From NCBI GenBank assembly GCA_021808785.1, contig JAKBAX010000003.1:1-51515 (forward strand): DNA of 51,515 nucleotides, read 5' to 3'. Source of the stretch: Actinomycetes bacterium. Lineage in GTDB: Bacteria > Actinomycetota > Acidimicrobiia > Acidimicrobiales > Palsa-688. Below, piece by piece: positions 7,762 through 17,311 of this stretch (position 1 is its first letter; each line of letters opens with the position of its first letter). The notes under the pieces were generated by a model. That model worked only from the letters and a program-made list of their open reading frames with translations, had not been told where the DNA came from and searched no databases. The translations under genes were made by a program, and so were the position numbers.

Positions 7762-8640
7762 CTACTTGGCGGACACGGTCTTTCCCGGGATGGTCGTCCC
7801 GCAGATGGGGTCTCCGCCGGGGATGAGCTTGAAGTCCGCCCCTGTCCACTGGACAAGGAACCCGCAGTTGTCCGCTCCGACCACCGATCCTCGATTTGCC
7901 ATCGTGAAGTCGATCGAGTGGTCGCCGACCAAGCCGGCGGCGTCGTAGTGATCCATCGCCAACAGGGCCCGAGTCACCGAAGCGGGCGTCGGGTTCGACC
8001 CCGCCGCCTCGAGTCCTTGGACGAGGGCATCAATGGACAGATAGCCGATGTACTCGCCTGATGTCGGCGCGGTGTCGACGCCGGCGTACTTCTTCAGGGC
8101 GGCGGCGATGGTCTTCGTACCGGTGGTGTCCATCTCGGGCGGCTCGTAGATGCTCCCGAAGTACACGCCCTTGGCCTCCTGCTCCGTGGCCGGGCCGCTG
8201 GCGAGGAGGTCACCCTCGGACTCGGGTAGGAAGCCGGCCTTCAGGTGCACGCCCTGCTGGCGCAGACCGACGATCGTTGCCAATCCGGTGTTGGTATCTG
8301 TGAGCGGATAGAAGGCGTCGATCCCGGCGCTCTTCATGGCCAACACATACGGCGCGACGTTCGTGGTTCCGAACGGGACGTTGGCGCTGACATATCCGGC
8401 CTTCAGTCCGGCCGCCTGCGCCGACAAGGCATAAGGCCTGAGCGGTCTCTGACGACGAGGGAGAAATTCTGTAGCCGATGGTGGCCAGGTTGGTCGCGCC
8501 GACCAACTTCAGCATCAGGCCGGTCGTGGTCTCGACCTTGGTGTAGTCCTGGAATCCGTAGATCGAGAACATCCCGCGTGAGGCCGGGTCAACATACGAT
8601 ACTGTCTTGACAGGTATATCTACGCTCTACCGCAGGATGG
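7762..8640 (-). pseudogene. Decayed branched-chain-amino-acid-type substrate-binding protein gene
   Basis: The region aligns with the C-terminal two-thirds of the intact receptor at 16073-17311. The first part reads IPVKTVSYVDPASRGMFS and then YGFQDYTKVETTTGLMLKL, matching FGFQDYTKVQTTYGLVMKK of the paralogue. A frameshift near 8427-8435 then moves the frame to LSAQAAGLKAGYVSANVPFG, which continues to the stop at 7762. An in-frame TAG lies near 8634, and the signal peptide and first lobe are missing. The homologue would be a periplasmic-binding lipoprotein for an ABC importer. No permease or ATPase gene is nearby. Confidence 0.85.
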
Positions 8641-13484: not shown

Positions 13485-15191
13485 TCAGCCCGGGACGCCT
13501 ACCGCTCTGGTGACCGAGTTGGTCCCCCCGAAGCAGAACTGGCTGCGACCCGCCTTGGCGCCGACGACGAAGAACTCGAAACAGTCCGGAGAGGGGTTGA
13601 CCGTCACCTCCGTCTCCGGCTCGTCGATCAGCCACAGCAGCTCGGGATGGGAGATACGAAAGGCGTCCATGGACTGGTTGAGCATGAGCTTGCGGAACCC
13701 GAGAACGGTCCGTCGGTGTATGGCCTGGCGGATGTCGGCCGGTCCCCAGCCGGCGGCCGCGAACGCCGCTGCGTGGTCGGGCGCCATCAGCAGGAGGTTC
13801 GAGAAGACCCCGTGGAAGGGGTAGCCGGCCGAGAGAGGAGCGTCGTTCTTGATGAGCCAGGCCCCGGCCGACGGGGTCCCCGACGAGTGACAGGTGAGCG
13901 TCGCCCAGGACTCGATGAGCCGCTCCGGGTCCGAGTTCTCGAAATCGAAGAACTCGGTCATCCCGTAGGGGACGTTGACCGTGACCGTGGTCTGCTCACG
14001 ACCGAATCCCTGCTGCACCCGCCACGGCTCCCACGGCGTGGCCTCCTCGTTCTCGGCCACACAGGCCGAGAACTTCATCGGGGTCCCGATGGTGTCCATG
14101 TCGGAGATCCCCGGATAGGACAGCCCCACGTTCATCATGATGAGCCGCAGGGCCCGGCCGATCGCCACATTGACATGCGAGATGGAGCCCGGCCCGAGGG
14201 CGCAGATGCCATGGTTCATACCGATCTCGTCGGCCAGCGGGCCCGAGACGAGGACCACCGGGGCCTGGGGTCCGGTGGACATGGCCCAGGTCCGCAATCC
14301 GATCGAAGGGTCGAGGATGCACTCCGTGACGGCCATGATCACCGGCATGGTCTCGGGCCGGCATCCGGCCATGACCGCGTTGGCCGCGATCTTCTCCACC
14401 GTGCCCAGGCCGTCGCCGGGGGCGAACAGACCCACCACCTCGTCGGCCGGACGGCCCGAGGCGGCCACCATGGCATCCACCTTGGCCGGGGTGGGCGGCA
14501 CCAGCGGCAGGCCATCGCTCCAGCCACGCTGGATGAAGGCCCGCTGCATCTCGTCGAAGGCGTCGAGCAGGTCCTGTCCGTCGAAGCGCAGAGTGGGGCT
14601 CGGATCCAGGTGCATCAGCTCCACGGCGGTTGGCGCCGACGCCGCGACCCGGCCCTCGGTGAGGCCGTTCACGACCGCCCCGAACGCGTCGTCCACCAGC
14701 CGATGGATCTCGTCTGCGGTCTTGTTGGAGAAGCATTCGGCGACGATCACCGGGCAGGCGTCGGGCACCCCGAAGGTCCGGGTGCTGAAGTGGGCGTCCT
14801 CCTCGAAGATGGCCGCCGTGTAGCCCACGGCAGGGACGCCACGGCGCTCGAGCTCGCAGAGGTCCCGCATCAACCAGGAGGTGCAGCTCCCGCAGTCCGC
14901 CGACGTGGCGACCACCGCGTCGGCTTCTGCTGCCAGCATCGAGAGTTGATCCTCCGACAGGTAGCGGTTGGTCCCGCCCAGCTCCCCCACCACGTCCACG
15001 AAGCGGACATCGGTGTAGCGCTTCTCCAGGAGCTGACGGCTCCGCTCGAGCGCGTGCAGGCCGTTCTGCTTACCGTTCCAGTACAGAGCCACCAGCTTGT
15101 GGTCGAGCGTGGCCGGGCGAGGGGCCGGCGCGTCGTGCTCGTCCCGGTCGTGCGAGCGCGGCACGGCCACCGGATTGACAATCGTCAACAA
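13485..15191 (-). CDS. UGSC-motif protein (cysteine form) with a long C-terminal domain
   Basis: This protein of about 568 residues begins with a domain (about 30-180) carrying SADCGSCTSWLMRD. It matches the motif of the UGSC family, in which the first position is selenocysteine in some members; here it is Cys100, with Cys103. The neighbourhood of the motif (LVALYWNGKQNG, RFVDVVGELGGTNRYLSEDQ) suggests a thiol-redox or metal-binding site. The second part starts QRGWSDGLPLVPPTPAKVDAMV and continues for over 300 residues with conserved-looking Gly, Asn and His patches. No function is established for it. The start appears to be TTG without a good ribosome site, so a downstream GTG is possible. 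A NifU-like gene lies 22 bp upstream. Confidence 0.85.
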   Translation of the reverse strand: MLTIVNPVAVPRSHDRDEHDAPAPRPATLDHKLVALYWNGKQNGLHALERSRQLLEKRYTDVRFVDVVGELGGTNRYLSEDQLSMLAAEADAVVATSADCGSCTSWLMRDLCELERRGVPAVGYTAAIFEEDAHFSTRTFGVPDACPVIVAECFSNKTADEIHRLVDDAFGAVVNGLTEGRVAASAPTAVELMHLDPSPTLRFDGQDLLDAFDEMQRAFIQRGWSDGLPLVPPTPAKVDAMVAASGRPADEVVGLFAPGDGLGTVEKIAANAVMAGCRPETMPVIMAVTECILDPSIGLRTWAMSTGPQAPVVLVSGPLADEIGMNHGICALGPGSISHVNVAIGRALRLIMMNVGLSYPGISDMDTIGTPMKFSACVAENEEATPWEPWRVQQGFGREQTTVTVNVPYGMTEFFDFENSDPERLIESWATLTCHSSGTPSAGAWLIKNDAPLSAGYPFHGVFSNLLLMAPDHAAAFAAAGWGPADIRQAIHRRTVLGFRKLMLNQSMDAFRISHPELLWLIDEPETEVTVNPSPDCFEFFVVGAKAGRSQFCFGGTNSVTRAVGVPG

Positions 15192-15213
15192 CGGCGTTTG
15201 CGACCTGGCCGGC

Positions 15214-15444
15214 TCACAGCTCCTCCACCTCTATCCGCAGCGCCGGCGAGCGGCGCCCGAGGGTCTCCGACATGAGCTGCTGCAGGTCGGTTCGGGGCAT
15301 CGGGCAGCGGCCGTCCTCACAGGCCGCCTCCTGGGCGGCCGAATAGCCGATCCGCACCACGCCGGACTCCACACCGAGCAGGGTGATCACGCCCCCGTCG
15401 CGTTGGACCATCCGCTGGAACTGCGCCACCAGTGCCTCAGCCAT
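15214..15444 (-). CDS. Small NifU C-terminal-like protein
   Basis: The protein has 76 residues from the ATG at 15444. FQRMVQRDGGVITLLGVESGVVRIGY matches the start of NifU C-terminal (Nfu) domains, where 'DGG-x-x-x-L' precedes a strand. The Fe-S-binding CxxC is replaced here by Cys-Glu-Asp-Gly-Arg-Cys, with a wider spacing, followed by PMPRTDLQQLMSETL and a final strand LRIEVEEL. It may carry a metal or Fe-S cluster, or may have lost that role. It is 22 bp before the UGSC gene and is probably co-translated with it, which hints at cofactor delivery. A longer N-terminus is possible. Confidence 0.72.
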   Translation of the reverse strand: MAEALVAQFQRMVQRDGGVITLLGVESGVVRIGYSAAQEAACEDGRCPMPRTDLQQLMSETLGRRSPALRIEVEEL

Positions 15445-15484
15445 CGCCGGGCCGCGGTCCCCCTGCGGATGCACATGAGAGACG

Positions 15485-15931
15485 CTATTGGTCCGGCACA
15501 GGTCGCGCAAGCGTCGGCACGCAGCTGATCAGGGCGTGGGCCACCTCTGTCTCCGCCTGGTCGGTAACCCGTATGTCCGACACCACGAGCCTCGGGCCGA
15601 ACTTCAACAGGGTGGCCTCCCCCGCGAGCGGCCCCGCCGTAGGTCGGCGCAGGAAGGTGATGGTGGCGCTGGAGGTGACGGCACCGGATCCAGGGGCGAG
15701 CCTGGAGAGCGCCATCACCAGCGCGGCGGCGTCCGCGGTAAGGAACATCGTCGGCCCGGTGGGGATCCCCAATCTCAGCTCACCCTCCCCCGGCCAGCGC
15801 CGGAATCGGCACGACCCGGCCGACAGGAGCTCGATCGAGGCGTTCCCCCCGAGATGGCGCGACGCCAGGATGCCCCGCTCGTGCAGGTAGGCCTCCAATG
15901 CCGCGGCACTGGAGAAGTGTTCGTCAGGCAT
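15485..15931 (-). CDS. PaaI-like hotdog acyl-CoA thioesterase
   Basis: This 148-residue protein is a single hotdog. Residues around GPTMFLTADAAALVMALSRLAPGSGAVTSSATITFLRRPTAGPL match the long central helix and following strand of PaaI-type thioesterases, and LLKFGPRLVVSDIRVTDQAETEVAHALISCVP gives the last three strands. In the family an acidic residue on the helix activates water; here Asp or Thr near FLTADAA could do it. It is the first gene of a minus-strand cluster with the NifU-like and UGSC genes and is divergent from the substrate-binding lipoprotein. It probably hydrolyses a CoA thioester; the acyl group is unknown. Confidence 0.82.
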   Translation of the reverse strand: MPDEHFSSAAALEAYLHERGILASRHLGGNASIELLSAGSCRFRRWPGEGELRLGIPTGPTMFLTADAAALVMALSRLAPGSGAVTSSATITFLRRPTAGPLAGEATLLKFGPRLVVSDIRVTDQAETEVAHALISCVPTLARPVPDQ

Positions 15932-15980
15932 CGATGCGCTCCCCTATCTGGTGACAAATGGTGGGTCCGAGCCAGATGGC

Positions 15981-16009
15981 TTGCACCCGGCTGGCTGGGC
16001 ACATACTGT
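15981..16009 (+). promoter_or_regulatory. Putative promoter of the substrate-binding lipoprotein gene
   Basis: TTGCAC at 15981-15986 and TACTGT at 16004-16009 are separated by exactly 17 bp, the ideal spacing for the housekeeping sigma factor. The leader to the start codon would be about 57 bases and contains GGGGGAG before ATG. Confidence 0.55.
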
Positions 16010-16072
16010 TCGCCGCCAGACGACTGGTGTCGAGCTTCCCGAGCGATCGTGGAGCTACCGGGGGGAGTACAC

Positions 16073-17311
16073 ATGGACAAATGGGTCCGTCGCGCCGCGG
16101 CCGGAATGGCCCTGACGACGGTGATCGCGGCTGGCTGCAGCAGCACCGTCAAGGCCAAGGGAAGCGCCAGCTCGGGGTCCTCGGCGTCGGAGCCGACCTA
16201 CACCGTGGGGGTACTGACCGATCTGACCGGCCCCGGGTCGAACACCGGCGACACCACCGAGGAGGGGATCAAGGCCGGTGTCGGCGTGGCCCAAGAGGAC
16301 GGGTACCGCATCAAGTACGTCATGGCTGACACCGGTACCTCGCTCAGCGGGGTGCTCACTGCGGCCAAGACTCTCGTCGAGCAGGACCACGTCCTGGCCG
16401 TGATCCAGATTTCGGTGGTTGGATTCGGGGCCGCATCGTACCTGGCGTCGCAGAACATCCCGGTGATCGGGGCCGATGTCGACGGTCCCGAATGGCTGAC
16501 CGACCGCAACATGTTCTCCTCGTTCGGCTTCCAGGACTACACCAAGGTGCAGACCACCTACGGCCTGGTCATGAAGAAACTGGGCATAACGACCATCGGC
16601 GGCGTCGCCTACGGCATCGAACCGGCCTCGTACGACGTGGTGAAGTCGTGGGCCGCGTCGGCCCAGTTGGCCGGAATCAAGGTCGGGTACCTCAACACCC
16701 AACTGCCCTTCGGCGACACCAACATGGGGCCGGTCGCGTTGCAGATGAAGAGCAAGGGCGTGAACGGCATGTACACCGGCGTAGTGAGCAGCACCTCTTT
16801 CGCTCTGGCCGCCGCGCTGCAACAGCAGGGGGTCAAGTTCAAGGGTCTGATGGCCACCGGCTACGGCGGCGACCTCACCGGTGGCGGACCGGGGGCCAGT
16901 CACATCGCTCAGGGGCTGTACTTCCTGAGCGGGTACGAGCCGATGGAGATGCACACCGCGGCGACCCAGAAGTTCGCCACTGCGCTCAGCCGTTACGCCG
17001 GGGTCAAAGGTGACCCCACGCTGAGCGAGTACCTGGGGTACACGGCCATCGACGCCCTCGTCGCCGGCTTGAAGGTCGCCGGTCCGAACCCGACCCAGGC
17101 CAGCCTGATCAATGCCATGTTGGGGATCACCAACTTCGACCCCGCCGGTCTCTGGGGCGGGCGCACCACCTCGTTCGCGCTGGCCGGACGGGGGGAGACG
17201 GCCGGCGGTGACAACTGCACCTGGATCACCCAGTACAAGGGGACCTCGTTCCATCTCGTACCCGGCCTGGATCCACAGTGCGGGACCCTCGTGCCCGGAA
17301 AGTCCGTCTAG
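16073..17311 (+). CDS. ABC transporter substrate-binding lipoprotein, branched-chain amino acid type
   Basis: This 412-residue protein starts with a lipoprotein signal (two Arg, a hydrophobic stretch, then IAAGC with Cys22 as the lipidated residue). A Ser/Ala/Gly-rich linker follows, and then the Peripla_BP_6 fold: YTVGVLTDLTGPGSN, GADVDGPEWLTDRNMFS, FGFQDYTKVQTTYG, and a C-terminal lobe with SEYLGYTAIDALVAGLKVAG. It should bind a small solute outside the membrane and deliver it to an importer. No permease or ATPase gene lies in the window. A decayed paralogue is at 7762-8640. Related receptors in actinobacterial catabolic clusters may bind the compound being degraded. Confidence 0.93.
   Translation: MDKWVRRAAAGMALTTVIAAGCSSTVKAKGSASSGSSASEPTYTVGVLTDLTGPGSNTGDTTEEGIKAGVGVAQEDGYRIKYVMADTGTSLSGVLTAAKTLVEQDHVLAVIQISVVGFGAASYLASQNIPVIGADVDGPEWLTDRNMFSSFGFQDYTKVQTTYGLVMKKLGITTIGGVAYGIEPASYDVVKSWAASAQLAGIKVGYLNTQLPFGDTNMGPVALQMKSKGVNGMYTGVVSSTSFALAAALQQQGVKFKGLMATGYGGDLTGGGPGASHIAQGLYFLSGYEPMEMHTAATQKFATALSRYAGVKGDPTLSEYLGYTAIDALVAGLKVAGPNPTQASLINAMLGITNFDPAGLWGGRTTSFALAGRGETAGGDNCTWITQYKGTSFHLVPGLDPQCGTLVPGKSV

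Follow-up and report, generated by a model that had tools for sequence, protein, structure and literature searches.

A UGSC-domain fusion protein remotely related to GrdB/PrdB, with a near-obligate partner domain and a linked Nfu-like gene, in an acidimicrobial contig

The stretch of DNA analyzed here (the window; 51,515 nucleotides of contig JAKBAX010000003.1, from an Actinomycetes bacterium) carries on its minus strand, between positions 13485 and 15931, three open reading frames (ORFs) encoding a hotdog protein, a Nfu-like protein and a UGSC protein of 568 residues, a layout described earlier from the sequence alone (the sequence-only reading) and confirmed here. Based on profile comparisons, the UGSC domain of the long protein is a remote relative of GrdB and PrdB, the selenocysteine (Sec) subunits of glycine and proline reductases, and it is fused to a second domain that adjoins UGSC as a separate gene in most other genomes. 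We tentatively interpret the fusion as a two-part thiol/selenol reductase of the GrdB/PrdB type used in catabolism, with a confidence that falls a little short of even. The kinship with GrdB/PrdB, the near-obligate partner and a thioredoxin-like domain in a sister clade with Sec-containing UGSC are new here, and the sequence-only interpretation, a redox or metal-dependent enzyme with its own carrier acting on a coenzyme A (CoA) thioester, was partly supported as a whole.

Residues 9-178 of the long protein matched the UGSC family PF24696 at 103.8 bits, over the Pfam cut-off of 25, in agreement with the family assignment previously made from its Cys-Gly-Ser-Cys motif, while its score against NF041046 (82.6 bits) was under the NCBIfam equivalog cut-off of 125 bits. 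Residues ~206-568 corresponded to a second, separate conserved domain, which had escaped the sequence-only reading. A scan of genome contigs yielded 20 loci, of which 19 were full-length fusions and one (L025) had partner and UGSC as separate genes; given orthologues of 62-76% identity in 19 other loci, the locus is more than a chance arrangement. Hosts of the orthologues belonged to Actinomycetota (Nonomuraea, Streptosporangium, Sphaerimonospora, Rhizocola, Actinophytocola and an actinobacterial metagenome-assembled genome, MAG) and to Alphaproteobacteria (sphingomonads, a Hyphomonadaceae MAG and another alphaproteobacterial MAG). Within the phylum, UGSC was present in 29 of 396 sampled genomes (27 over cut-off), and the window's own genome contained five UGSC genes, three with an in-frame TGA. 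The set of 61 loci used for comparison consisted of the 20 contig-scan loci, the window, and 40 stretches around UGSC genes of the phylum sample. These 40 were drawn from 48 match rows other than the window, eight rows, mostly weak, partial or further copies, being left out (G362:C269, G362:C288, G186:C47, G156:C68, G136, G123:C127, G271 and G196), and counts over the 61 loci therefore do not represent a random sample. In a tree of 60 partner domains, obtained by a quick method and with several long branches that make deep joins unsafe, the window and its 19 orthologues formed one clade; the changes needed on this tree were four for the Nfu trait, one for the thioredoxin trait, five for the replacement of Sec by cysteine (Cys) and two for the fusion.

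When 27 diverse UGSC domains were scanned against NCBIfam at E ≤ 10, the GrdB model TIGR01917 was matched by 19 of them (best E 1.9e-4) and other GrdB-like models by fewer (GrdF, 12; TIGR01918, 9; PrdB, 3; GrdH, 3), with no unrelated family matched by more than two. Using HHalign, UGSC domains from all 61 loci scored 90% against 14 short GrdB-like proteins (pairwise E 1.6e-6) and 49% against 13 long GrdB proteins, these targets coming from 30 loci after L075-L077 were left out; the alignment placed Sec on Sec and matched the UxxC motif. As controls, 33 decoy families reached at most 3.2% and reversed UGSC domains 0.1-0.3%. A set of 42 rows, composed of the window and 41 sequences outside the close clade, scored 87% (short) and 48% (long). 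These matches support a remote relationship to GrdB/PrdB, and UGSC may work in a similar way. The window protein, nevertheless, scored under the family cut-offs (15.3 vs. 602.2 bits for TIGR01917; 11.5 vs. 65.45 bits for TIGR01918) and the GrdE/PrdA partner was missing, so that UGSC is not a member of GrdB/PrdB proper. No UGSC match to a GrdB-type family was obtained in Pfam, where the GRDB model (PF07355) stops just before Sec. Separately, short GrdB/PrdB-like proteins with a U-P-x-C motif (L078-L091) were common in the phylum, and matches to PF07355 were found in 64 of 296 of its genomes, including the window's own.

The AlphaFold2 model of the fusion had a mean predicted local distance difference test (pLDDT) score of 73.4, with residues 21-180 in blocks of 69-98. 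The UGSC domain was predicted to have strictly alternating strands and helices, its motif opening the helix after the third strand, an order that makes somewhat less probable the thioredoxin-like fold considered likely in passages of an earlier survey (PMC2398784). The fold search used the whole-protein model and barely covered the partner domain. With VIA-align, the top match to the UGSC domain was 8s7v chain H (Z 11.2, root-mean-square deviation 2.9, 133 aligned), followed by a designed protein (Z 10.9) and by Rossmann-like proteins (Z 10.0 and lower), and the list included CheY- and flavodoxin-like proteins. Judged by chain length and title, chain H is probably Mmp7, whose McrC-like domain holds a [8Fe-9S-C] cluster through C143 and H84 according to passages of PMC12176620. 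This kinship with McrC/Mmp7 was seen as a structural match only, with no support in Pfam.

The partner domain adjoined UGSC at 59 of the 61 loci, and at the two loci where it was absent (L126 and L128) UGSC lay near a contig end. In the window's own genome, each of the five partner-domain matches adjoined one of the five UGSC genes, including a locus (L093) where the two genes are divergent and 2.4 kb apart. Judging from this gene order, UGSC has a near-obligate partner, which in the window forms the C-terminal domain of the fusion. The partner could not be assigned to GrdE/PrdA (HHalign 0.3%) or to any Pfam or NCBIfam family, none of which was matched, always weakly, by more than three of 28 members. 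Searched against PDB sequences, the partner and the full protein each yielded chance-level matches only and the UGSC profile yielded none, and no partner-domain relatives were found in the viral contigs searched. A UGSC/Unknown_1 fusion was noted earlier in passages of PMC2398784. At L119:12684-14027 a further gene for the partner domain was observed, accompanied by a Nfu-like gene of its own (motif CPEC), on a contig where no UGSC was found.

The Nfu-like ORF as listed spans 15214-15510, its conserved start being more likely the ATG at 15444. Its product scored 23.8 bits against PF01106 (NifU), under the cut-off of 27; its AlphaFold2 model (pLDDT 80.4) had as top Foldseek matches the C-terminal domain of human NFU1 and Arabidopsis CnfU (E 2e-4). 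As noticed in the sequence-only reading, the usual CxxC was replaced by C-x4-C, and both Cys were invariant in 19 of 19 aligned Nfu-like proteins. The association with UGSC proposed there was borne out in other genomes, clearly contradicting the lack of co-occurrence that would have refuted it: 17 of 19 close orthologues, across Actinomycetota and Alphaproteobacteria, had the Nfu-like gene immediately upstream, its stop codon lying 8-239 nucleotides ahead of the conserved UGSC start. Regarding the remaining two orthologues, which share a genome, it lay on the other strand within 0.5 kb at L022 and was not found at L021. Moreover, Nfu-like genes with CxxC adjoined four more distant UGSC genes (L113, L118 with a weak score, L119 and L126). 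NifU matches below 40 bits numbered five in 26 genomes, and four of them, the window's included, were located at UGSC genes. The fifth, in the window's own genome (G000:C173, L133:3906-4181, motif CMECLVP), was found beside an AMP-binding CoA ligase-like ORF and without UGSC.

In a sister clade with Sec-containing UGSC, comprising 19 of the 61 loci, a thioredoxin-like domain was found N-terminal of the partner. These domains had CxxC (16) or CPTS (3), and carried a VPT or MPT motif, which we take to be the thioredoxin cis-Pro loop; a Pfam thioredoxin or TraF match was obtained for eight of nine tested, most under cut-off. No locus had both a Nfu-like gene and a thioredoxin-like domain, and in five loci with neither (L096, L104, L109, L115 and L117) C-x4-C occurred as a terminal extension of the partner. 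The same C-x4-C spacing is present in the tail of Escherichia coli ribonucleotide reductase, where the pair Cys754/Cys759 passes electrons from thioredoxin to the active site, as described in passages of PMC11143221. On the basis of this distribution and spacing, the Nfu-like protein is probably an electron donor acting through its Cys pair, an iron-sulphur (Fe-S) role remaining as the alternative. Thus, the idea that the enzyme has its own carrier held as regards a conserved Nfu-like neighbour, yet a metal carrier was not its best reading, given that in the sister clade the partner bears a thioredoxin-like domain in its place.

The first motif position was encoded by UGA in 35 of the 61 genes (34 of the 40 phylum-sample loci, plus L025) and by Cys in 26, consistent with the use of Sec proposed for some members of the family. 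Its presence in close relatives, suggested as a check, was found only further away: the window and all 19 close orthologues had Cys, while the more distant fusions L127, L130 and L131 carried UGA. Since SelB and tRNA-Sec families matched weakly in all 14 control genomes, only scores over cut-off were considered; contig C198 of the window's own genome reached 252.8 bits for SelB (cut-off 242.25) and 61.5 bits for tRNA-Sec (gathering 47). A 7-bp stem, whose first base is the 15th counted from the T of the UGA, formed on average 6.17 pairs in genes with UGA (35) and 4.04 in those with Cys (26), where the pairing could be a remnant or reflect coding constraint. Across the 34 distinct UGA sequences, paired cells made up 87.8%, vs. 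13-53% in slid controls, in a stretch that is also coding and with a structure read off the same sequences. Four stem pairs were changed on both sides, although three of six slid controls had five such pairs, above the real stem, so that covariation was modest and the paired-cell share was the stronger sign. Folding energy after UGA, taken alone, gave a weak signal (mean z -0.59 vs. -0.14), weaker than that of the specific stem. The hairpin is a candidate bacterial Sec insertion sequence (SECIS). It was observed at L108:10133-10171 (minus strand), and at the corresponding position of other UGSC genes with UGA, as a conserved 7-bp hairpin with an AGTGT-like loop. In the thioredoxin-partner protein of L025 (5601-7046), an in-frame UGA replaced the conserved Cys of the PGCGS linker (PG-U-GS), a candidate second Sec in one gene pair.

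Genes of acyl-CoA catabolism surrounded the close orthologues. Around the fusions we found CoA ligases, acyl-CoA dehydrogenases, enoyl-CoA hydratases, type III CoA-transferases and GntR/FCD regulators, with names assigned to the neighbour clusters by eye or from a single representative. Genes for solute uptake were located within 5 kb at 12 of the 61 loci, weakly supporting a link between uptake and catabolism, and in the window a Peripla_BP_6 binding protein is divergent from the operon. Together, these neighbours point to catabolism, probably with an organic acid or the CoA ester of one as the substrate. According to PMC10838667, Cloacibacillus GrdB-like proteins were proposed to reduce fluoroacetate, which suggests that such proteins can serve other cleavages.

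Under the reductase interpretation, the UGSC domain would provide the reactive Cys (Sec in most relatives) and a resolving Cys three residues on, while the C-terminal partner domain would bind and orient the substrate. The Cys or Sec would attack the substrate, a bond beside a carbonyl would be reductively cleaved, and the enzyme would be left as a disulfide (or selenenylsulfide) needing re-reduction. This last step would be performed in the sister clade by the thioredoxin-like domain fused to the partner, and in the clade of the window most likely by the Nfu-like protein, as a dedicated dithiol shuttle with its C-x4-C pair. Several observations weigh against this interpretation. Nfu proteins are normally Fe-S carriers. 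The window protein's own match to GrdB was weak (E 0.036 as a whole, 0.007 as a domain), and HHalign with the 20 close fused sequences alone gave only 24% and 37%. The classical pyruvoyl partner GrdE/PrdA (PF09338) was not found in the window's own genome (90% complete), and the partner domain is unlike GrdE. In addition, 14 of the 61 loci (one cut by a contig end) had no thioredoxin-like domain, Nfu or C-x4-C extension, and a single thioredoxin clade may be all that lies behind the absence of loci with both donors. Finally, no activity is known for any UGSC protein. Passages on UGSC from the open-licence literature searched (PMC2398784, PMC13188914, PMC9312934 and PMC7539508) assigned it no function and gave no link to GrdB or Nfu. 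The further proposal of a new reductase class, in which a Nfu-derived protein with C-x4-C has become a donor of electrons (or clusters) dedicated to the enzyme and has taken the place that a thioredoxin-like domain has in the Sec-using sisters, seems quite improbable at present.

An explanation closer to the sequence-only reading takes the Nfu-like protein for a genuine Fe-S carrier that loads a cluster onto the Cys-x-x-Cys of UGSC, the enzyme being an Fe-S dependent reductase. The Nfu fold of the model, the CxxC kept by the relatives beside unfused UGSC genes, and the probable identity of the best structural match with a cluster-holding protein (PMC12176620) are all in line with it. However, Sec occupies the first motif position in most relatives, a thioredoxin-like domain takes the place of Nfu in the sister clade, CxxC has become C-x4-C in all 19 aligned Nfu-like proteins, and the structural match scored so close to a designed protein and to Rossmann-like proteins that it may reflect only a common arrangement; we regard this explanation as unlikely. 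Somewhat less probable is that the UGSC pair serves redox homeostasis as a general thiol-disulfide oxidoreductase and is not a catabolic enzyme. UGSC was called likely thioredoxin-like (PMC2398784) and listed among thioredoxin-like selenoproteins (PMC13188914) in passages of these works, a CxxC-like motif and a partner with a thioredoxin-like domain would fit, and some conserved neighbours of the thioredoxin clade (MutY-like, metallo-beta-lactamase-like) are not catabolic; the alternating fold of the model, the CoA ligases, acyl-CoA dehydrogenases, enoyl-CoA hydratases and FCD-type regulators of the Nfu clade, and the nearby solute-uptake genes, on the other hand, do not favour it.

It is also conceivable, with a very low probability, that the two genes do not work together and that the Nfu-like gene stays next to UGSC only because a single operon was inherited or transferred: the window and its 19 orthologues are one clade, so their matches are not independent, and the divergent Nfu-like gene on C173 stands beside a CoA ligase and not beside UGSC. 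Yet Nfu adjacency recurs beside unfused UGSC genes, requires four changes on the tree, and is tightly kept across two phyla, all of which speaks against a hitch-hiker.

Table 1. Features of the UGSC locus in the window
Feature	Coordinates	Strand	Evidence
UGSC-partner fusion protein, 568 aa	13485..15191	-	19 full-length orthologues, 62-76% identity
UGSC domain (PF24696), alternating strand/helix, GrdB/PrdB-related	14658..15167	-	profile, HHalign, model
Cys-Gly-Ser-Cys motif, Sec position in most relatives	14883..14894	-	alignment with relatives
Partner domain ("Cdom"), no named family	13488..14573	-	separate gene adjoining UGSC in most other genomes
Nfu-like protein from conserved ATG	15214..15444	-	Nfu fold in AlphaFold2 model
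C-x4-C motif of Nfu-like protein	15304..15321	-	alignment
Hotdog-fold thioesterase-like protein	15485..15931	-	same direction; not conserved with UGSC elsewhere

The fusion gene starts at a TTG codon or, alternatively, at a second TTG at 15188. The hotdog gene was rightly recognized in the sequence-only reading (PF03061, 4HBT, 32.0 bits vs. a cut-off of 20.6), but its inclusion in a functional set with UGSC was rejected: it was present at one of the 61 UGSC loci, the window itself, and is therefore local to this locus. Solute-binding proteins that look similar by eye flank the operon at 7762-8572 (minus strand) and 15488-17311 (plus strand), the former split over two overlapping frames, perhaps by a frameshift.

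UGSC ranked among the most abundant selenoproteins of the Global Ocean Sampling data, with 255 Sec forms, according to passages of PMC2398784. The GrdB/PrdB link, a named partner and likely electron donors make this orphan family open to assay, and the Cys-type versions in named Nonomuraea and Sphingomonas strains spare selenoprotein expression.

Compared with known systems, UGSC shares with the GrdB/PrdB proteins of glycine, sarcosine, betaine and D-proline reductases a Sec/Cys in a strand-motif-helix context with UxxC(xxC), and differs from them in that no GrdE/PrdA proprotein was found, in having a different partner, and in that the N-terminal half is unmatched. With the UGSC family (PF24696/NF041046) the window protein has in common the domain, the motif and the Sec/Cys exchange, while it departs from it in its sub-cut-off NF041046 score and in having a Nfu-like neighbour where relatives have a thioredoxin-like domain. 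The Nfu-like protein resembles Nfu (the NifU C-terminal domain) in the fold of its model and in a weak profile match under the Pfam cut-off, its C-x4-C standing in place of CxxC. As for the fluoroacetate operon of Cloacibacillus, a rumen bacterium, likened here by description, PMC10838667 describes GrdB-like proteins with other operon partners in a catabolic reductive cleavage other than that of C-N.

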